IMG/VR virus record: IMGVR_UViG_3300005294_000076
Coordinates: 1 to 21,808 of that record
Strand: one strand, 5' to 3'
From: a virus
DNA: 21,808 bases
The notes below the pieces were generated by a model that worked only from the letters and a program-made list of their open reading frames with translations, did no database searches and was not told where the DNA came from. Numbering within the stretch: the stretch's first letter is position 1; each line of letters begins with the position of its first letter. The position numbers and the translations under genes were made by a program. Shown here piece after piece: positions 1 to 13,108 of this stretch.

Positions 1-3000
1 GCCGACAACCTCAAGAAGTGGCAACTCTACAACAGCGAAGATCTGATCCGGCAGCATAAGCAAGACGTGCGGCTGGAGCAAAAGGGGCTTCTGGATTACC
101 AGACTGCCGGAATGTCGACTGCTCAGATCGCACAGAAGTATGTCGACGCGCGGGTCAAGGTCAATCCTGACTGGTTCCAGCAGCACTACGCAGGGATACA
201 GCAGCCACCGACTCAGGCGACTCAGGTGCAGGCAGCCCCGACGCCGGTCAAGTTCGCGACGGTAGAAGCTGTGAAGACGGGCGGTGCAGGCTGGACTGAC
301 GTCGAAACCACCGAGCGGGCGAAGCTCCTCAAAGACCCCTCTTTCTACAAGTCCGGGCAGATCACACAATTTCCTGTTGCCGTGCGTGATCAGATCCTGA
401 ATGATCCGAACTTCGACTGGAAGCAGTTGCCCCGCTGGCAGAAGACATACTATGGCATCATCTCCAACCCCAAGATCATGGCCAGTCCCATGGCTTTGGC
501 GGGTGCTCATGCCGGTGGGATCTTCGGTCCTGTTGGAAAGGTTGCAGGTGCGGCTGTTGGTTATGGACTGGGACTTGTCGGCGGGCAACAGTATGACCCG
601 ACGCGGGGAGTCTTCGAGCAGCCAAGCGCAACTGCCGGACTGATGGCTGTCCTGAACAAGCTCTCAGAAGGAGCAGAGCAGACGGTCGGGTACACAGCTC
701 AGGCACTGGACGCAGCAATTGCCGGAGCGCAGGGGAATCAGGAAGCGGCAGCTAGCGCCAATAAGATGCTGACAGATCCTGCCTACCGGAAGGCGACTTG
801 GGAAGCGGGACGCTTTGCCTACGAAGCCAGCGACTTCATGGGCGCACGCAACTGGATACCAGGGATCGCGAGACTCTTGGGAGATGAAACCGCCGTCCTC
901 GCCAAGCCTGGGCAGGACTTCGTGGTCGGCGCATCTCAGCCGGTGGATCGAGCCGTAGCGCAGGGGTTCAACCCGGTGACCGGCAACTTCTACGATACCA
1001 ACGATGCTATGGGGATCTTGCAGGAAGCCAGGCTCACCATCCATAAGGCGATCATCAATGGTGAGGACCCTCGGGATGTGGTTCGGCAAATCATGGGCGA
1101 GCAGGGGCAGTATGTGGGCGCGACCGTGGCAGACTTTGCCGGACAAGCAGCCATTGACCCGCTGGAATACCTGCCGGAAGTGACAGCCAAGACGACCGGC
1201 AAACTCGCCAGCCTCATGGGGAACGAGACTGCGGCGCGTGCCTTCCTGGAATCCAAAGCGCCGGTCGAGGGATTGCGGAGGTATCAGACACTGGTGCAAA
1301 CCGGAGATGTGGCGCCAGGCTTCGACTATACCAAGATGAGTTCAGTAAGCAGATGGGTCGCAGGTCTCAACGAAGCCGGGCAGATCAAGAGCGGACCGCT
1401 CACACAGACCGGACTCCTGGACAAGCCAGCCAAACAGGCCGGGCTATGGTCGAAGCTCAAAGACGACTGGGCGGCACTGACACCGGAGGCACGCGCACGC
1501 GAAGGGGCGAACATGTTCTATAACAACCTCGGCGCGCTCCTCTCCACCTTCGACGATCCGCATGAGATCAGTAAATTTATGGGGTCACTCTCGAAGGGTG
1601 ACATGAAGGTCTGGGCAGAGATGGGCGGCAAGATCGCCCAAAGCCCGGAGTGGTACACGATCCTGCCCGCGCTCAAGGACTTTGATAGCGCCAAGGTCGA
1701 CGGACCGCTGGCAGCCTGGGATCTTGCACAACCCCATAGGGAGAGACTCCTTAGGATCGCCGATGTGTTGGGCGAGGAGCCAGGCACATTCATCGAAGAC
1801 CTAGCCAAGCGCGGCACAGATGAGCAGGACTTCCAGAGGCTAACCGAACGGCTGCAACAATCCACAGACCCGGGTGCCAAGGAACTGCTTGCCGACATGC
1901 AGCGCGGCGATTTCACCAAAGACAATCTCAAGCAGATGGTGGATGTCTTCACTGGTGACGGGGCATTGCCGTGGCATGTCGACCAATGGAAAGCCTCGAT
2001 GATGGATGCCCTCGGTTCTCACTTCGACGAATGGGCAGTCGAGAAGCTAGGGTTGGGGCGCGATACGCCGGAAGCGAAAGCCTTCTTCAGGACCACACAT
2101 CTTTTGAAGAGCGCGCAATCTGTCCTCCTGTTGGGCGGCAGTCCGGGCTATGCTTTGCAGAACGGCATGTCGAACATGGTCCATAGAGCCGTGACCGGCA
2201 TCTATGGATACATGACCCCGCGGCAGATCGACACATGGCTCGACCGATTCGGAGTGACACCCGCCAGACTGGAAGAGGGAGTTGGGATCGGCGGTGAAGT
2301 AGAACAGGCCGCATCAAAGAGCAGCGTCAAAACAGAAGCGATTCAAGCGGAAGTCAAGGGAAACCAGAATGACGCCCTGGGTCGAGCGCAGCGGATAGTC
2401 TCCGCCATCGGCAGGGGCATGCCGTTCAATAAGTTATCTTCCGCCTTCGAACAACTGGAGGGGAAGAACGGCTACATGATCGCCATGCGGGATATGTGGT
2501 CGCAGACGTGGCGCCGCGGGCGCGGCTTTGCCGAAGTGACACCGGATCTGAAGGGACACCTGGAGCAGGCAGGCATCAACCCGAACAGCATTTATTCTCT
2601 GATCGAGGCGGGCATGAACAAGGATGAGATCGAGCGCTTTGTCTTCCAGCGACAGTCAGGGATCATGTCTCGGACTCTGGTCAACGACGCAGCCCAGAAG
2701 ATGGGAATGCCGTCCACCCAGGCAGCCAGGTTATTGGAGAAGGTCGGCGTGCTGGATGAGCTGGATCGCGTCCTTGCCAAAGCCGATACCCCCGACCGTG
2801 TACGAGGCGCGTTCAGGTCTGCGATCAGGAAGGCTCAGGACTTCCAAGACATGCAGACCGCCCGCGATCTTAGGACAATGGCAGAGCAGGTCACGAATAA
2901 GGTTCAGGCAGAAGGACCGGCAGCCGCATTGGATGTAGTGCAGCGGGTGAACGGGGAATACTTCGACGCATGGCTGGATCACTACTCACGGTTCGGGGAG

Positions 3001-6000
3001 ACGTTCGAGGAATTGCGCGGCATCCCCGACGCTAGCCTACGCAGCAAAGCGATTGACCTGAATTACCAGATTTCCGATCAGGAGTTCAGGCGGATCAATG
3101 CGAGGACGGCGGCGAACTATCAGGGCATATTCGAAGCATGGGGCAAGTCTCGTAACCCAAAGGCGATGGAGATACTCGCCGCCGTCGCGCAGTCCGATGC
3201 AGCCATGAAGGAAGCCTACGACTTCATGAGAAGTGAGCGCAGATCTTTCTTCGATAGGCTACGAGAGAACCCGGATTCCATTCCTCCTGGAGAGTGGGAA
3301 GCCTCCCAGAAGAAGGTCGACCAGGCATTCGAGCGGGCCTTCAAGTCCAAGGGCAACGCCGAAAAGAATATGGGGAATGCACTGGGCAAGATCAACGAGG
3401 AGATGTACGGTCCGGCCGCCGGAGAAGCCGCCCGCAAATGGTGGGAGGATTACACAAAGTTCTCTGACGACATCGTGAAGCGTGAGCGCGACTTCCGTAA
3501 ATCCATCCAGTCACTGACGCGTGATCAGAGGGAAGCGGCAAAGCAGAAGTATTACCAGACGGAGAAGGTTGCCCAGATCGCAGAGCTTGAGCGCATCAAC
3601 CAGGAGGGGATACAGAGATTGGAACGCGTCATCAAGAACGGGAAGGGCGGGCAATCAGCAATCAGCGGTCAGCCTTCAGGTGGCACTCCCCCGCCCTCCC
3701 CCGGTGAAGCTATACGCACAGGTGGGGGAGCTGAGGAAATCAATAGTCTGATCGCCGACGCAGAACAGCGCACTGCCCGCGACGTTGCAGACAAAGCTGA
3801 GAAGGTGAAATCCGTTTGGGATGTGGCAGAGGAGTATTCCCGCGTTGGACTGCCCTACGACCGGACCATCCTGCAAGATCGCTTTGCCCTGATCGGTGCG
3901 CTCAGGAAAGAAGAGTACGGCGGGATCGCAGACCTGACCGGACTGGATGACCCGCGTCTGACGCCGGAGATGGTGCGGGATGTGATGGACAAGCGAGCCG
4001 AAGCCAAGAAGGTGGAAGAGTCCAACAAGGTAGACCTTGCCAGGGCGAAGGCAGAACAGGCCGCCAGGAAAACAGAAGGGATCTTAGGTCCCGACATCCA
4101 TGACGACACATCCATTCTCAAGGCCATCTCCGAACATGGCGGCTTGCAGATCGATCAGGCTCTTGACTTGACCGGCGAGAAGCGACCGCGCTCCATGCCC
4201 GGAGTGTTCAGGAAGAAGGGAATCGGCTTGGATGAAATGGCGCGCATGCTGGCTGATGACGGCTACCCAATCGACTTGAACTCTCCCGACGACCCAGGCG
4301 GAATCAGGCAGGCGACTGAACTTCTTACCCGCGCACGCCAGGGAGAGAAGATCTATCCAGCCGGTCACGACTACGAAGCCGCGCTCAAGCGAGCAGAGAC
4401 GGCTTTCGCCGAAGAGATGGCAGCGCAGGAACCCGTCTTCGATATGGCACTCTGGCAGAAGGATCTTGAAGACGCCACCTCGACCGGCGACCTGACGAAG
4501 ATGTATGAGAAGATCGGCGAGCTGCCAGAGGAGCTGACCAACGAGCGCGCCCCCTCCGGTGAGACCTGGACAGATTGGATGAGCCGGATCGCGGATGAGA
4601 CAGTGGCGCGTGTGGAGGATGCAACCAGAGAGCAGGCTGTTGCCGACACGATGAGCCGGATCGCCGATGAGACCAACTCCATGGAAGAGCGCGGGCAGGC
4701 AATGCAGACGAAGCGTATCCTGGAAGAGAAGTTCAGGGACGTCTTTGGGCTGACCGATGAGCAGGCCGCCGCCTACATGGAGTTGAGTGAAAGTGTTTCA
4801 GAATGGTACATGCGTATAACAGGAGAGAGCGGCGATGCTTTCTATTCCAGGTACTATGAAGATGTGGTCTCAGGCGGGGAAGGGGATCTCTTCCAGATTG
4901 AGCCAGTCAACAGAAGGATGACACCGCAGGAAGTCAGCGACTATGCGCGGGCACTGGTAAGAAGTGGAGCCGACGAGCTGAGGCGGGCAGTAGCTAATGA
5001 GCCGAACAAAGCCGACCGCGTTGCCATCCTGACCGAAGCGCACAACCTCAATCCGAAGCTAGCTGAGCAGGTTGCTAGGCAGTCGCTCAGTGTTCTCTTC
5101 CAGGAAGTGTGGCACGGCAGCCCGTATAAGTTTAACAAGTTCACCCTCGACAAGATCGACACCGGCGAAGGTGCACAGGTCTATGGATGGGGGCTGTACT
5201 TTGCTGAAGAGAAACAGGTCGCAGAGTATTATCGACATGGTTTATCTCTGAACAAGATGGACCCGGAAACACGGAAGCTGTACGACTACTGGGAAGTAGT
5301 GGATAAGAAAAAGGAACTTGTCGACGCATTGCGAGAAAAGCAATCACAGCGCCCAAGCGACAGGCAGTTGCAGACGCGCTTGAAAGTAGCCGAGTCTGAA
5401 TACAACTATATACTCGAATCAGCCCAGGGGATTGGAGAGCGCCCACCAGAAGCTGGACAGCTTTATCGCGTTCATGTCCCTGACGAGAATTATCTGTTGT
5501 GGGATCAGCCATTGAGCGAGCAGCCGCAGGTGGTACAGGATGCTGCGAGGAAATGGTACGACAGTCAACCTGGGTGGAAGGGTGCACCGCCTGAAATGTT
5601 CGAACGGTTCCTGGCAGCCACAAAAGGAAAAGATTTTTACGACCGACTAGCCGAAGCTCACGGAACCGAGAAGACATTTACCGGAGGCTGGACTGGGAAA
5701 GTTAAGAGTGATAAAGCCGCATCTCTTGCTTTGAACGAAGCAGGTGTCAGTGGCATCAAGTATCTGGACGAAGCCAGCCGCGGCGCGGGCGAAGGCACAT
5801 ATAACTTTGTGATCTTCGACGACAACGCCACCAAGATTCTGGACACCTACTACCAGATCGCCAATGGGACCGGCGCAAAGCGCGGCGCCGTCACCTTCGG
5901 ACCAGACGGCATCAAGGCAACCATCCACGCCTTCGAAGCCAGGAACTTCTCGACCCTGATCCACGAGAACGCCCATGTCTTCCGGCGCGTGCTGGCAGAT

Positions 6001-8985
6001 GTGGCGACCCGCACCGACAACCAGAAGATCAAAGCCGACCTTGTCACCATCGAAGAATGGGCAGGGGTCAGGGATGGCGAGTGGACGCGTGAGCACGAGG
6101 AGAAGTTTGCACGCGGCTTCGAGAAGTACATTGCCGATGGAGAAGCGCCGACGCCCAAGCTGAAGCGTGCCTTCGAGAGTTTCAAGAGCTGGATGCTTCA
6201 AGTTTATAAGCAGATCACCGGAAGCGCTATCGATGTGCAGTTGACCGACGACGTAAGGAGTGTATTCAACCGGATGCTTGGGGAAGAGAAGCCGATAGAG
6301 AAGATGCTCAGCGACCGCAGACAACCCGCACACAAGCAACTCAGGGACGCATGGGGCACCCTCGACCCGACCCAGCAGCAGGAGGTCATGGATTGGATCT
6401 TCAAGAAGACGCTGGTGGATCCACTCTCAGGACTGGAAACGCTGGTTGCAAAGGGCATCGAGGGAGCCAAGCCCGCTGGATGGGTGGAGGCCATCTCCGA
6501 CCTGAACGCCCTGACTGCTATCAATAATGCCTGGGGGCACGGGGGGGGCGACCAGGTCATCAAGGGGATCGGCGGGATCGCAAAGGTGGAAGTGGAGAAG
6601 GTCGGCGGGCGCGCCTTCCGTGTCGGCGGCGATGAGTTTTCCTATTGGTTCCCCAGTGAAGAAGCCGCACGCACCGCGCTTGACGCCATCGACAAAGGAG
6701 TCCGGGAACATGTCTTCACCATCGGCGACACGAAGCGCAAGGGCTTCACCATCTCCTATGGAATCGGCGACAACCTACCCAGCGCCGACAAGTCCCTGTA
6801 TGACGACAAGTCCCGGCGCATTGAACTAGGGCAACGCTCGACGGTCCGTGATCAAATGCCGCCCTCGGTCCAGACGTTGTTCCAGGCAGACTACCCAATG
6901 GGCACAATGGAGGACGCCTCAGGCTTCAAGGCAGATAGTGAATGGCAGGACGCGGGCTGGAAGTCGCGCGTCAGACCTCTGCTCGACGCGATGCAGACCG
7001 TCGCACTCGACAAGCTCACCAATGAGCGCCCGCTGGACGGAGCATATAAGGACATGTCAGCCGAGGGACAGCAGCTCCTCCGGCAGTATGTTCGTCAGGT
7101 ACAAAACGACATGGGCGCGGTGAAGAACTCGACCATCAAATGGGGAGAGTCACAGCGCGACTTCGCCATGTTGAATTACAACAGGCGGTACGGGTTCGAC
7201 CGTGGACTGGAAGCCGTCGCACCCTACCAGTTCTATTACACCCGCAGCCTCATGACCTGGGCGGCGCGCGGTATCGACAAGCCTGCCTGGTTCGCCAACT
7301 ACGCCCGCATTCGTAATCTCCAGAACAAGCATGAACGAGATGTGCCTGAGCGTTTGAGAAACAAGTTCCGCATCCCCGCGCCGTGGCTTCCCAAATGGAT
7401 GGGCGACGCGTTGTATATCGACCCGCTTTCCAATCTCTTCACGCCTGCCAATTTCCTGAGACCCTTCGAGACGATGATGAGGGATAAGAATTATCAGGTG
7501 ATCGAAGCGGAAAGAGTTTTGCAGGAGTGGGCACAGGATGGACAGGCAACCGACGACGCAATCGCCGAAGCCGCACAGAGTAGAAGCGGCAGCCTGTGGG
7601 AACGGGCACTGGCTGAGGCAGGCACGAGGAGAGAGTCGGAGATCTCCAACCCGTTTGATTTCATGGCTACGATGTTTGGTCCCGCATGGTATCTCTCCAC
7701 TCCACTCAATCTGTTGGGTGCCAAGGTTCCATTCCTGAGTAAGGGAGAGCCGAACAAAGTCACGACGACCCCACTCCTGAACACTGCCCGCGCGCTCGAA
7801 GCCACCACCAAAGGAACCTGGGCGGAGCCGATAGGACAGTTCGCCGCGCTCCTGGGGAAGCCCGAAGAGATGCTGCGAAAGAAAGCTGGACTGCCGGAGT
7901 TCGGCGAGTTCGGCGATTACTATGTCGACCGGCAGCTATCCAACATGGTAGCAGAAGGTGCAATCACCAGCCAGCAGGCACAGATGGCAATGATCGAGCG
8001 ACAAGGCGCGCTCTTCGACCAGGCACGCGAGCGGGTAAAGCTGGAGCTTGCGATGAGGACGCCCCTTGCCGGTGCGGTACTAGCTGGCACACATGAGGGA
8101 GTCGGCGCAGGTGTGAAGTCTTTCTTGCCGTCGCTGTTCGGGTCGGGGTTGTTACCAGCCGGTGAGCTGGAGTATCGCGGCTTGAAGGGTGAATGGAACG
8201 AAGCCTGGAAGAAGTACGACGGTGGCGATAAGACCGCGATCAATGGCTTCTTCTCAGACCACCCCGAATATGAAGCCTACCTTGCGAAAGGCAAGCCGCC
8301 CGAGGAGCGACTGCGATCTTTCCTGATCGGTAACATCTGGGATGCGTACATGGGCTTGGGTCCCACCAACCAGAAACAGGCCCGCTCTGAAATGGGCGAC
8401 GACTTCAACCGTTCCTTCCTGGACAAGGAGACTCGCTCTTACGATAGCCTGGACGTGAAGACCCTGACGCAGTGGGCGCAGCTCCTGGGCGGCATGATCC
8501 CGAAGACTCCGGAGACCGCGCCAGTGCTGGCGGTGCCGGCAGCCGAGCGACCCAAGCTCAACCTCTACGACCGGCAGGTGACGAAGATCACGGATCAATT
8601 CTTCAACCAGCGCACCAAGTATTACGGCAACTATTATGAGCTGGAGCAAGGCTACTATTCATTGCCAAAGAGCCAGCGCGCCAGTTATCTCTTGAAGAAC
8701 CCTGAGCTGAGGAAGTATTGGGATTGGAAGGATAAATGGATGAAGAGCTACCCAGATCTGGAACCGATATTTAAGGGGCAGGTTTTCAAACGGGTGGATA
8801 CTTCGACATGGGCACCGGGTCTCCTCGATTACGTCACGACCTATGCCTACAGCGGGAAGAAGTTGCCGAAGGGAGCCTACAAAGCCCTGGAGCAGCAGTG
8901 GATTATGGAGGGTCGACCGATGGACAATCTCAATTCGTGGCTCAATTCTCAGGTTGTTCCCGCCTTACTTTATGGCGGTCAATAA
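1..8985 (+). CDS. Giant phage polyvalent protein (ART, zincin and GGDEF domains), 5' end outside window
   Basis: The frame is open from base 1. A GTG at 67 could start it, but the 22 codons before it read as ordinary protein, so I call it 5'-partial; 2994 residues are visible. Order: a Gly/Ala-rich hydrophobic segment (478-585) that could insert in membrane; long helical regions; a Pro/Gly linker (about 3643-3730); an ADP-ribosyltransferase-type domain (about 5107-5858) with WHGSP and GWGLYFAE motifs; a zincin with HENAH at 5962-5976 and a downstream EKFARGFEKYI segment; a GGDEF domain (about 6418-6870) with GHGGGD and GGDEF at 6625-6639; then a conserved C-terminal region with PYQFYYTRS and PLSNLFTP. 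Multi-effector proteins of this kind are known from phages and conjugative elements as polyvalent proteins. Size, position before the capsid genes and membrane segments suggest a packaged, ejected virion protein, comparable in role to T7 gp16. That role is inference; the domain calls rest on motifs. Confidence 0.9.
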   Translation, partial: ADNLKKWQLYNSEDLIRQHKQDVRLEQKGLLDYQTAGMSTAQIAQKYVDARVKVNPDWFQQHYAGIQQPPTQATQVQAAPTPVKFATVEAVKTGGAGWTDVETTERAKLLKDPSFYKSGQITQFPVAVRDQILNDPNFDWKQLPRWQKTYYGIISNPKIMASPMALAGAHAGGIFGPVGKVAGAAVGYGLGLVGGQQYDPTRGVFEQPSATAGLMAVLNKLSEGAEQTVGYTAQALDAAIAGAQGNQEAAASANKMLTDPAYRKATWEAGRFAYEASDFMGARNWIPGIARLLGDETAVLAKPGQDFVVGASQPVDRAVAQGFNPVTGNFYDTNDAMGILQEARLTIHKAIINGEDPRDVVRQIMGEQGQYVGATVADFAGQAAIDPLEYLPEVTAKTTGKLASLMGNETAARAFLESKAPVEGLRRYQTLVQTGDVAPGFDYTKMSSVSRWVAGLNEAGQIKSGPLTQTGLLDKPAKQAGLWSKLKDDWAALTPEARAREGANMFYNNLGALLSTFDDPHEISKFMGSLSKGDMKVWAEMGGKIAQSPEWYTILPALKDFDSAKVDGPLAAWDLAQPHRERLLRIADVLGEEPGTFIEDLAKRGTDEQDFQRLTERLQQSTDPGAKELLADMQRGDFTKDNLKQMVDVFTGDGALPWHVDQWKASMMDALGSHFDEWAVEKLGLGRDTPEAKAFFRTTHLLKSAQSVLLLGGSPGYALQNGMSNMVHRAVTGIYGYMTPRQIDTWLDRFGVTPARLEEGVGIGGEVEQAASKSSVKTEAIQAEVKGNQNDALGRAQRIVSAIGRGMPFNKLSSAFEQLEGKNGYMIAMRDMWSQTWRRGRGFAEVTPDLKGHLEQAGINPNSIYSLIEAGMNKDEIERFVFQRQSGIMSRTLVNDAAQKMGMPSTQAARLLEKVGVLDELDRVLAKADTPDRVRGAFRSAIRKAQDFQDMQTARDLRTMAEQVTNKVQAEGPAAALDVVQRVNGEYFDAWLDHYSRFGETFEELRGIPDASLRSKAIDLNYQISDQEFRRINARTAANYQGIFEAWGKSRNPKAMEILAAVAQSDAAMKEAYDFMRSERRSFFDRLRENPDSIPPGEWEASQKKVDQAFERAFKSKGNAEKNMGNALGKINEEMYGPAAGEAARKWWEDYTKFSDDIVKRERDFRKSIQSLTRDQREAAKQKYYQTEKVAQIAELERINQEGIQRLERVIKNGKGGQSAISGQPSGGTPPPSPGEAIRTGGGAEEINSLIADAEQRTARDVADKAEKVKSVWDVAEEYSRVGLPYDRTILQDRFALIGALRKEEYGGIADLTGLDDPRLTPEMVRDVMDKRAEAKKVEESNKVDLARAKAEQAARKTEGILGPDIHDDTSILKAISEHGGLQIDQALDLTGEKRPRSMPGVFRKKGIGLDEMARMLADDGYPIDLNSPDDPGGIRQATELLTRARQGEKIYPAGHDYEAALKRAETAFAEEMAAQEPVFDMALWQKDLEDATSTGDLTKMYEKIGELPEELTNERAPSGETWTDWMSRIADETVARVEDATREQAVADTMSRIADETNSMEERGQAMQTKRILEEKFRDVFGLTDEQAAAYMELSESVSEWYMRITGESGDAFYSRYYEDVVSGGEGDLFQIEPVNRRMTPQEVSDYARALVRSGADELRRAVANEPNKADRVAILTEAHNLNPKLAEQVARQSLSVLFQEVWHGSPYKFNKFTLDKIDTGEGAQVYGWGLYFAEEKQVAEYYRHGLSLNKMDPETRKLYDYWEVVDKKKELVDALREKQSQRPSDRQLQTRLKVAESEYNYILESAQGIGERPPEAGQLYRVHVPDENYLLWDQPLSEQPQVVQDAARKWYDSQPGWKGAPPEMFERFLAATKGKDFYDRLAEAHGTEKTFTGGWTGKVKSDKAASLALNEAGVSGIKYLDEASRGAGEGTYNFVIFDDNATKILDTYYQIANGTGAKRGAVTFGPDGIKATIHAFEARNFSTLIHENAHVFRRVLADVATRTDNQKIKADLVTIEEWAGVRDGEWTREHEEKFARGFEKYIADGEAPTPKLKRAFESFKSWMLQVYKQITGSAIDVQLTDDVRSVFNRMLGEEKPIEKMLSDRRQPAHKQLRDAWGTLDPTQQQEVMDWIFKKTLVDPLSGLETLVAKGIEGAKPAGWVEAISDLNALTAINNAWGHGGGDQVIKGIGGIAKVEVEKVGGRAFRVGGDEFSYWFPSEEAARTALDAIDKGVREHVFTIGDTKRKGFTISYGIGDNLPSADKSLYDDKSRRIELGQRSTVRDQMPPSVQTLFQADYPMGTMEDASGFKADSEWQDAGWKSRVRPLLDAMQTVALDKLTNERPLDGAYKDMSAEGQQLLRQYVRQVQNDMGAVKNSTIKWGESQRDFAMLNYNRRYGFDRGLEAVAPYQFYYTRSLMTWAARGIDKPAWFANYARIRNLQNKHERDVPERLRNKFRIPAPWLPKWMGDALYIDPLSNLFTPANFLRPFETMMRDKNYQVIEAERVLQEWAQDGQATDDAIAEAAQSRSGSLWERALAEAGTRRESEISNPFDFMATMFGPAWYLSTPLNLLGAKVPFLSKGEPNKVTTTPLLNTARALEATTKGTWAEPIGQFAALLGKPEEMLRKKAGLPEFGEFGDYYVDRQLSNMVAEGAITSQQAQMAMIERQGALFDQARERVKLELAMRTPLAGAVLAGTHEGVGAGVKSFLPSLFGSGLLPAGELEYRGLKGEWNEAWKKYDGGDKTAINGFFSDHPEYEAYLAKGKPPEERLRSFLIGNIWDAYMGLGPTNQKQARSEMGDDFNRSFLDKETRSYDSLDVKTLTQWAQLLGGMIPKTPETAPVLAVPAAERPKLNLYDRQVTKITDQFFNQRTKYYGNYYELEQGYYSLPKSQRASYLLKNPELRKYWDWKDKWMKSYPDLEPIFKGQVFKRVDTSTWAPGLLDYVTTYAYSGKKLPKGAYKALEQQWIMEGRPMDNLNSWLNSQVVPALLYGGQ
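4579..4673 (+). repeat. Internal direct repeat (two 23-base copies, 72 bases apart)
   Basis: Positions 4579-4601 and 4651-4673 match at 22 of 23 bases. Both are in frame in the giant gene and both encode MSRIADET, exactly 24 codons apart. This looks like a small in-frame duplication in a helical linker just before the ADP-ribosyltransferase domain. Confidence 0.75.
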
Positions 8986-10398: not shown

Positions 10399-10427
10399 TT
10401 GACAACCACGCCATATTCGGCGATACT
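10399..10427 (+). promoter_or_regulatory. Sigma70-type promoter before the methyltransferase
   Basis: TTGACA (10399-10404), a 17-base spacer and GATACT (10422-10427; four of six consensus bases). Predicted initiation is near 10434, inside the Shine-Dalgarno stretch at 10431-10438, so the leader would be nearly absent. That makes its use as the main promoter uncertain despite the good boxes. Confidence 0.45.
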
Positions 10428-10446
10428 GCAGGGAGGAGACACAGCC

Positions 10447-11154
10447 ATGAACTATAAAGGCGGTAAGAACGCAAGCGGCATCTACCAGCGGATCATCAAT
10501 CAGATCCCACCCCACACAACCTATATCGAACCCTTCCTGGGATCAGGCGCGATCATGCGCTTGAAGAAACCGGCGATCGTAAGCATCGGCATAGACGTCG
10601 ATATGAACGTTATCAAACAATGGGAGGACTGGGGTGCCGGGCACCTCGCCACGCATGGCGATGCGATATCGTTTCTCAGTTCTTACGACTGGCAGGGCGA
10701 CGAGTTTGTTTACTGCGACCCACCCTACATCATGTCGACCCGGTCACATCAGAAGCCGCTCTACAGGCATGAGTTCTGTACAGAGGAAGAGCACGCCGAA
10801 CTTTTGAAAGTGTTGAAATCCCTGCCTGCCATGATCGCAATCTCCGGCTACAAGTCCGGTCTCTACGATAAGATGCTCAAGGATTGGCGCGTGATTTCCT
10901 ACCAGACCCGGACGCGTGGAGGCACGGTGGTCACGGAATATTTATGGATGAACTACCCGCAGCCGTTTGAACTCCACGACTATTCCTATCTCGGCGACAA
11001 TTACCGAGAGAGGGAGACTATCAGGAAGCAGCAGAAGCGATGGAGACGGATGCTGGCAGAGATGCCCGCGCTCAAACGGCTTGCGCTGTTGGATGTGATC
11101 CAATCTGCTAGGCAAATTGAGCAGAGAGATTCCGGAAGGCACCACCACGAATGA
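10447..11154 (+). CDS. DNA N6-adenine methyltransferase, D12 class (Dam-like)
   Basis: 235 residues from the ATG at 10447, chosen because GGGAGGAG lies about 10 bases upstream and the family N-terminus (YKGGK) starts right there; an upstream in-frame ATG would add 16 atypical residues. The enzyme transfers a methyl group from S-adenosylmethionine to adenine in DNA. Visible motifs: GGK near residues 5-7, SAM-binding EPFLGSGAI at 28-36, and catalytic DPPY at 91-94. Length is close to the usual 250-280 of Dam-type enzymes. Specificity is not readable from the sequence; GATC is a reasonable guess for this class. No restriction gene is adjacent, so it is an orphan enzyme, probably protecting phage DNA or marking it. 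It overlaps the next ORF by ATGA. Confidence 0.93.
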   Translation: MNYKGGKNASGIYQRIINQIPPHTTYIEPFLGSGAIMRLKKPAIVSIGIDVDMNVIKQWEDWGAGHLATHGDAISFLSSYDWQGDEFVYCDPPYIMSTRSHQKPLYRHEFCTEEEHAELLKVLKSLPAMIAISGYKSGLYDKMLKDWRVISYQTRTRGGTVVTEYLWMNYPQPFELHDYSYLGDNYRERETIRKQQKRWRRMLAEMPALKRLALLDVIQSARQIEQRDSGRHHHE

Positions 11155-12151: not shown

Positions 12152-13108
12152 ATGGCTTATACGCTTTTAGATTACGAGATGACCGCGCCGCCCCTGACGC
12201 GTGCAGTCATCAAGACCTGGCGGGAAGCATCCCTGATTATGGACATGCTCTCTCTCAAGACGGACGCCCAACTGTCACAGGAAGGCATCCGCTTCAATTC
12301 CCTGCCGACTGTGCCCTGGCGCAAGATCGGCGAATCATTCAGCGATGTGAAAGTCACCCCCGACCCCTGGCGTGAGCGGCTTCACTTCCTGGGGGCAAAG
12401 ATCGACGTGCCCAAAGAGTACGTCGAAGCCCGCTCTCTGGTGGACGTGCGCGCTCAACAGAGCGAAGCGATCATGCAGGGCAGTGCGTTCGCCTTCAACG
12501 ACGCCTTCTTCAACAACACCCCCACCGGCGACGAGGATGCGATTGTCGGCATGTGGTATCGCATCCATAACGACCTCGGCTCGAACCAGAAGTTCGACGC
12601 CGGGCTGGACATCTCCCCCGATACGTCTGTCACCAACTGGTGGTTCGATATGTTCGACAAGGTCGACGATCTGATTGACCGCGTCGACGGCGACGCCAGC
12701 CAGAAGATTTTGTTCATGGGTCGCACCATGTACTTCCGCTTTGTAGCAGCTCTACGCAAGGCCAACCAGGTGTTCAGCGAAGAGTTCCTGGGACGCAAGC
12801 TCTTGACCTACGGTCCGGGCGGCGCGAAGATCGCCCAGGCTGGATACAAGGTCGACCAATCTTCCCAGATCCTTGGCGATGCGGAAGTCAACAACACCGC
12901 CCTGACAGGTGGGAGTGAGTCCTCGATGTACTGCCTTCGCTTCGGTGAGCCGTACATCGCAGGTTGGGCGATGAAGATGCCGACCGCCGAAGATGTTGGA
13001 TTGCTCGAAGACCGTGTCAACTACCGCACAGTGGTCGATGGTTCCATTGGTCTCTATATAGTCAGCCCTCGACCGGCAGCCGTTGCTTGGGGCTGGACAG
13101 CGGCATAA
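12152..13108 (+). CDS. Major capsid protein
   Basis: 318 residues, ATG preceded by TTGGAGG. The sequence has the usual shape of an HK97-fold capsid protein: N-terminal arm (AYTLLDYEMTAPP), a middle with PKEYVEARSLVDVRAQQSEA, an aromatic-rich domain (WWFDMFDKVDDLIDRV), and a C-terminal part SMYCLRFGEPYIAGWAMK followed by EDRVNYRTVVDGSIGLYIVSPR, which recurs in phage major capsid proteins. It forms the icosahedral shell. It follows the scaffold gene by 35 bases and precedes a small decoration-like gene, as in many tailed phages. The fold is inferred, the gene identity is fairly secure. Confidence 0.88.
   Translation: MAYTLLDYEMTAPPLTRAVIKTWREASLIMDMLSLKTDAQLSQEGIRFNSLPTVPWRKIGESFSDVKVTPDPWRERLHFLGAKIDVPKEYVEARSLVDVRAQQSEAIMQGSAFAFNDAFFNNTPTGDEDAIVGMWYRIHNDLGSNQKFDAGLDISPDTSVTNWWFDMFDKVDDLIDRVDGDASQKILFMGRTMYFRFVAALRKANQVFSEEFLGRKLLTYGPGGAKIAQAGYKVDQSSQILGDAEVNNTALTGGSESSMYCLRFGEPYIAGWAMKMPTAEDVGLLEDRVNYRTVVDGSIGLYIVSPRPAAVAWGWTAA

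Follow-up and report, generated by a model that had tools for sequence, protein, structure and literature searches.

What could a single reading frame of nearly 3,000 codons, set among the head genes of a phage and carrying three enzyme-like domains in its middle, do for the virus? The window, by which we mean the whole 21,808-base stretch of a virus record analysed here, opens with a stop-free frame on the plus strand (1..8985, +; 2,994 amino acids) whose 5′ end is open. Among 100 base shuffles of positions 1–8985 the longest stop-free run was 355 amino acids, which rules out a chance origin of the frame. The IMG/VR contig G001 (40,216 bases), 100% identical to the window across the 9,545 bases compared, supplies 17 further codons up to an ATG (L002:1406), so that the complete gene encodes 3,011 amino acids, the first 17 of them outside the window. 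An earlier note on this DNA had described a single frame of almost 3,000 residues placed before the capsid genes, and was right on both counts. On G001 the genes 5′ of the giant gene are those of a GH25 endolysin and the small and large terminases, together with a 615-amino-acid gene in the portal position, assigned by that position and by a weak 23% match to a like-placed, unannotated gene of MW202608. The major capsid protein gene lies at 12152..13108 (+; phrog_212, E 1.8e-19; tblastn matches in 18 phage records), giving the order terminase and portal-like genes, giant gene, major capsid gene. A D12 adenine methylase gene is found at 10399–11154 of the window, between the giant and capsid genes.

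The locus has two features of phage-type polyvalent proteins: a phage with terminase–portal packaging (TerS and TerL on G001; the portal by position and weak match) and at least two unrelated enzymatic domains in one polypeptide (GGDEF by Pfam; ADP-ribosyltransferase, ART, and zincin through profiles and motifs). No RNA polymerase family was detected in the frame (Pfam scan to E 1, PHROGs to E 0.1), and an identity as an N4-like RNA polymerase was rejected, the single-subunit polymerase domain being missing in both scans. The protein also lacks any 19-residue hydropathy peak of 1.3 or more, contrary to the membrane-active regions suspected in the earlier note; such peaks occur in six of the ten family frames looked at.

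The answer we favour, with a probability of roughly 0.6, is that the gene encodes an ejection protein that would be packaged in the virion and would deliver exchangeable enzymes to the host, a diguanylate cyclase being among them in this phage. Packaging, cleavage and enzymatic activity are what we infer; the ejection reading draws on the position among head genes, the pattern of chassis and cargo, the general plan of the N4 vRNAP, and the alignment of the ART domain to a cyanophage A4 pre-ejectosome chain. It suggests that a signalling enzyme may enter the host alongside the DNA of such phages.

As judged from sequence comparison, the protein is composed of conserved N-terminal (~1,300 amino acids) and C-terminal (~700 amino acids) chassis parts around a variable slot of interchangeable enzymes. 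The N-terminal chassis (residues 60–1350; 178..4050, +) and the C-terminal chassis (residues 2292–2991; 6874..8973, +) were delimited with our own HMMs, built from alignments A8 and A7, respectively, both of which include the window sequence. The slot starts with residues 1351–1688 (4051..5064, +), which are partly common to some relatives. Eight PHROG matches were obtained for the frame, each with its best stretch inside residues 1702–2274; one family has a second, unplaced stretch. Both chassis parts are present in 57 frames, with a slot of about 65–3,137 amino acids (median 820) and a C part of ~719 amino acids; single slot lengths are rough because this set still includes near-duplicates (such as L146/L149 and L062/L153), frames truncated where a contig stops, and incomplete matches to the N-chassis (L004, L136, L195 and others). 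The C part is the more conserved, with a mean column identity of 51% (15 rows) versus 42% for the N part (16 rows). Its model is mostly helical, at low confidence (pLDDT 61.7), and gave no Foldseek match with an E of 0.001 or lower; neither chassis profile matched a solved protein among the PDB sequences (best E 0.12 and 0.42).

Relatives differ in the cargo of the slot. In the sister phage G002 (L006; C end 79% identical, support 99/98) none of the ART, peptidase and GGDEF domains was matched, and together with the IMG/VR relatives G004 and G005 it passes from the N to the C chassis without the three domains. G003, with a frame of 4,698 amino acids, keeps zincin and GGDEF, has no ART match and carries different cargo. 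A clear Pfam ART follows the zincin in L024, at the place of the window's GGDEF, and the cargo comprises LPD5 and LPD1 in L022 and N6-methylase and helicase matches in L028. The explanation of cargo-less relatives as assembly errors was rejected, because the chassis tree has frames lacking the three domains on several distinct branches.

Other frames of the family show peculiarities of their own. The longest chassis frame seen, of 7,021 amino acids, belongs to the 86,691-base virus record G116 (L193, L194) and has zincin and GGDEF in its N-terminal piece. In L136 the chassis extends over two overlapping frames (431–4138 and 4023 onward; 1,235 and 2,497 amino acids), which may reflect an error, a gene split in two or programmed frameshifting. 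The cargo of G003 (L011, residues ~1760–3800) contains twice a stretch with the motifs VEEIQSDWHQ and TTGxQQA(D/E)RYN, for which no Pfam match above cut-off was obtained. In G005 (L012/L013) the giant frame spans both contig ends with a repeated stretch, so this record may represent a closed circular genome.

The first enzyme-like domain of the slot, the ART (residues 1689–1949; 5065..5847, +), was recognized by our own HMM, built from alignment A6, which includes the window sequence, and by sequence and structural alignments. Its match to Pfam ART-PolyVal PF18760 reaches 20.5–23.5 bits, below the cut-off of 31.2, and 12 of the 31 members of A6 match that family at E 0.001; on these scores the predicted domain is left outside PF18760. 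The H-Y-D ARTs are defined by a His in strand 1, a Tyr in strand 2 and an Asp in strand 5 (PMC5512222), and the H, Y and D residues are present in the window's domain by alignment. In an AlphaFold model of residues 1640–2300 the ART part (pLDDT blocks 66–97) aligns best to a cyanophage A4 pre-ejectosome chain (PDB 9k3a; Z 10.1, 157 residues, r.m.s.d. 4.8), followed by tankyrase PARPs (Z 7.4–7.7) and a diphtheria toxin chain (Z 7.4), a range that the tool rates as middling. In the structure list most entries are helical stretches that have nothing to do with an ART, and many match a single long helical pair only. Tankyrase was reached by sequence profile at E 0.05 only. Foldseek returned nothing at E 0.001 or better for the same model, and structural support for the ART is counted as modest because the Z list re-examines Foldseek candidates, none of which was significant in Foldseek itself.

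The zincin-like metallopeptidase domain (residues 1959–2098; 5875..6294, +) has no match in the Pfam scan of the frame. It matches phrog_9880, a family of unknown function, with an E of 4.6e-42, and was also found by our own HMM. A HENAH motif is encoded at 5962–5976 and a candidate third ligand, a Glu, at 6121–6123; the corresponding residues H349, E350, H353 and E402 (A6 numbering) are nearly invariant and make up an HExxH motif with a downstream Glu. The HExxH is retained in 43 of the 45 frames bearing the domain (duplicates included). In the AlphaFold model the zincin stretch has pLDDT blocks of 51–89, and no zincin chain appears in the structure lists. Of the 41 frames whose slot measures at least 439 amino acids, 36 have the domain, as against none of the 16 whose slot is at most 377, nine of which (185–377 amino acids) would be roomy enough. 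This distribution fits a cargo-handling role, and the peptidase may free the cargo.

The GGDEF domain (residues 2102–2280; 6304..6840, +) is matched by Pfam PF00990 with an E of 5.3e-8 and 33.2 bits, above the cut-off of 23.8 (33–38 bits across scans). A two-row phage profile matches solved GGDEF proteins from E 5.8e-9, the first named diguanylate cyclase being DgcB at E 1.9e-7; against the phage collection the window's GGDEF yielded one record, at E 0.4. The active-site residues are present as Asp2167, Asn2175, Asp2184 and GGDEF 2209–2213 (6625–6639), with roles and near-equal spacing that we take to be those of PleD. The RxxD site of product inhibition is missing. From its residues, the domain is a predicted cyclase with an intact active site. 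Diguanylate cyclases work as dimers, and the window's frame has one GGDEF only. The GGDEF stretch of the AlphaFold model, built on two alignment rows, has pLDDT blocks of 33–89, and no GGDEF chain is found in the structure lists. The succession of ART, zincin and GGDEF domains read in the earlier note is borne out by profiles and active-site residues, while structure prediction lends modest support to the ART and leaves the zincin and GGDEF folds unsupported.

A search of 136 virus records with PF00990 gave matches in 2 of 50, 1 of 36 and 7 of 50 records of three sets. With the records divided by presence of the N or C chassis, a division then checked with HMMs, GGDEF was found in 9 of 69 chassis records (18 + 1 + 50) versus 1 of 67 non-chassis records (G071); the Fisher p of 0.017, or 0.033 with eight positives when one sub-cut-off match (G098) is omitted, is a guide only, because many records are fragments and the two groups compared were gathered with different queries. 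In the carriers GGDEF and chassis share the same frame (our own HMM did not confirm the GGDEF of G098), and the position of the domain varies, some carriers having it directly behind the N-chassis and others behind the zincin. In a tree of the C-chassis (51 rows, nine of them GGDEF carriers) the label calls for at least eight gains or losses, each imposed by branches with good support; of 500 shuffles of the labels, 204 required no more changes than this. The carriers are thus not clustered on the tree, and the term recurrent rests on counts, positions and divergence for that reason. The sister L006 without GGDEF (99/98) adjoins G003 with GGDEF, and its absence in L006 is most simply read as a loss. 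The tree excluded rows without an N-chassis match or with less than 550 amino acids of C-chassis, and dropped L153, L174, L152, L164, L177, L149, L139 and L161 as duplicates or fragments. GGDEF labels were set by hand for L190 (from Pfam) and L193 (GGDEF in L194, the other piece of its frame). G098 (L197), with its sub-cut-off GGDEF, is among the 9 of 69, a non-carrier in the tree and outside the alignment; G128 (L173), matched by our own HMM only, is a carrier in the tree and alignment and outside the 9 of 69.

Across the ten aligned GGDEF domains (nine chassis carriers and G071) the Asp, the Asn and the GDEF are invariant in all ten, which argues, at the level of sequence, for kept catalysis. 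The domain might instead have ceased to be a cyclase, binding GTP or playing a regulatory or structural part within the chassis. The region after the GGDEF hairpin is indeed strongly variable, the second Asp is missing in two copies (G118, G071) and a dimer is not indicated by any observation; we nevertheless consider such a loss of function unlikely, given that the first-metal Asp, the Asn and the GDEF have stayed invariant despite wide divergence and differing positions.

Proteins of this kind have been known since 2017, GGDEF included, when Iyer et al. named them polyvalent proteins (PMC5512222). That work describes a protein of a prophage that unites GGDEF, SWI2/SNF2, adenine methylase, zincin and ART domains, discusses GGDEF domains in polyvalent proteins and proposes interference with host nucleotide responses (PMC5512222). 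GGDEF in such proteins is therefore not a novelty, though the earlier note knew of no thorough study of this exact order with a GGDEF domain; its domain calls stand, and the virion-delivered toolkit that it suggested would still be the best reading. With the phage-type proteins of Iyer et al. the window shares unrelated enzymes in one giant chain, a zincin hub and an H-Y-D ART. It differs from the polyvalent proteins described there in its ~1,300- and ~700-residue chassis around the slot, in having close relatives with and without cargo, in the order ART–zincin–GGDEF and in its relatives in Chloroflexota MAGs; the word Chloroflexi has no occurrence in the main text of PMC5512222. The giant protein of G071 (4,394 amino acids), which is like the Acetonema protein of Iyer et al., shares with the window's the joining of GGDEF and ART in one frame. 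It is unlike the window's in having no chassis match, a much-diverged GGDEF, and helicase- and methylase-like stretches (by eye). A virus assigned to Methanomicrobiales (L005; BK063671, vir555) carries, in a frame from 10357, an ART and zincin pair 36% identical to the window's. Iyer et al. note few polyvalent proteins in archaea (PMC5512222).

The interference proposed by Iyer et al. points to another use of the same packaged protein, in which the GGDEF product would be a decoy or competitor against cyclic-nucleotide immunity of the CBASS or Panoptes type and would not steer c-di-GMP. Panoptes is a case of the host guarding such nucleotide pools (PMC12657218), and the turnover of cargo resembles an arms race. 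The guanine-recognition Asn of GGDEF proteins (PMC12657218), however, has an invariant counterpart in ten of ten domains, and c-di-GMP is therefore, on sequence grounds, the expected product; we regard a decoy as improbable.

A precedent in overall plan for an ejected enzyme is the N4 vRNAP gp50, of 3,500 amino acids, in which an N-terminal helical region is linked to injection, the enzyme occupies the middle, and a mostly helical C-terminal region with an HExxH is required for packaging (PMC5512222; preprint PMC12633501). The window's protein resembles it in being giant, in its central enzyme domains, in its HExxH and in its predicted, mostly helical C-terminal part. In contrast to gp50, its frame has no RNA polymerase family in Pfam or PHROGs; the two are compared by plan, and packaging of the window's protein would follow by analogy. 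A PDB sequence search at E 1 matched 21 sequences, none of them an N4 chain. The likeness to the cyanophage A4 pre-ejectosome chain (PDB 9k3a) concerns the modelled ART domain alone, at an r.m.s.d. of 4.8, and the chain is not labelled as an ART; none of the literature matches listed names cyanophage A4.

Cellular genomes give a hint of where such phages may live. A first genome-collection scan produced 115 candidates, none of them confirmed, and a broader alignment gave 50 candidates, of which three loci held up, each in a MAG that carries the label Chloroflexi or Anaerolineaceae. These three Chloroflexota MAGs hold the only cellular-genome relatives found, with 59%, 35% and 30% identity to the window over the best C-end segment, as relatives and not the window's phage; binning errors behind these loci are possible. 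The three MAGs contain 22, 4 and 10 GGDEF matches. Contig C29 of one of them bears the C-chassis, an integrase some 20 kb from it and, at 26 kb of the same contig, a GGDEF gene of cellular type; a second MAG has an integrase ~10 kb from the chassis. The Chloroflexi MAG G139 has a weak GGDEF match (contig 320, 9362–9817; E 8.5e-6) in a 1,952-amino-acid frame, perhaps another phage giant.

An integrase stands on the chassis contig in both MAGs searched (2 of 2) and matches in 10 of the 37 chassis virus records searched, none of the matches being in G001. Some relatives thus belong to temperate phages, and the protein could be one that is never packaged, made late or in the lysogen and acting in the phage-producing cell, for example against rival phages. 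The location of the giant gene among head genes and the precedents of the N4 vRNAP and the cyanophage A4 pre-ejectosome speak against this, and we hold it to be quite improbable.

Under the preferred reading, that of a packaged ejection protein, several copies would be packed in the head, probably by means of the C-terminal chassis, and the protein would exit along with the DNA, a step in which the N-terminal chassis would assist, as in the N4 vRNAP. The peptidase may release the cargo through self-cleavage. In the newly entered cell the ART would modify host proteins at once, and the cyclase would raise c-di-GMP before phage gene expression, in hosts that already use c-di-GMP; this rise could turn either the behaviour of the host or its nucleotide-based defence to the phage's advantage, and both are possible. 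A more specific proposal, which we put forward tentatively and at somewhat less than even odds, is that Chloroflexota-linked phages have repeatedly plugged an intact cyclase into the slot of an ejection protein, resetting host c-di-GMP before transcribing a gene.

What is new, as far as the literature searched shows, is the chassis family, a slot that is empty in some sister phages and filled in others, intact GGDEF cargo that recurs, and the Chloroflexota link; apart from Iyer et al., who discuss GGDEF domains, that literature gave no paper on a packaged cyclase. If the proposal is true, phages act on a main bacterial lifestyle signal at the onset of infection with a packaged enzyme. The chassis with its variable slot offers a sequence handle by which candidate effectors injected by phages could be gathered for uncultured hosts, and the chassis family provides a natural panel of nearly matched phages that do or do not carry cargo.
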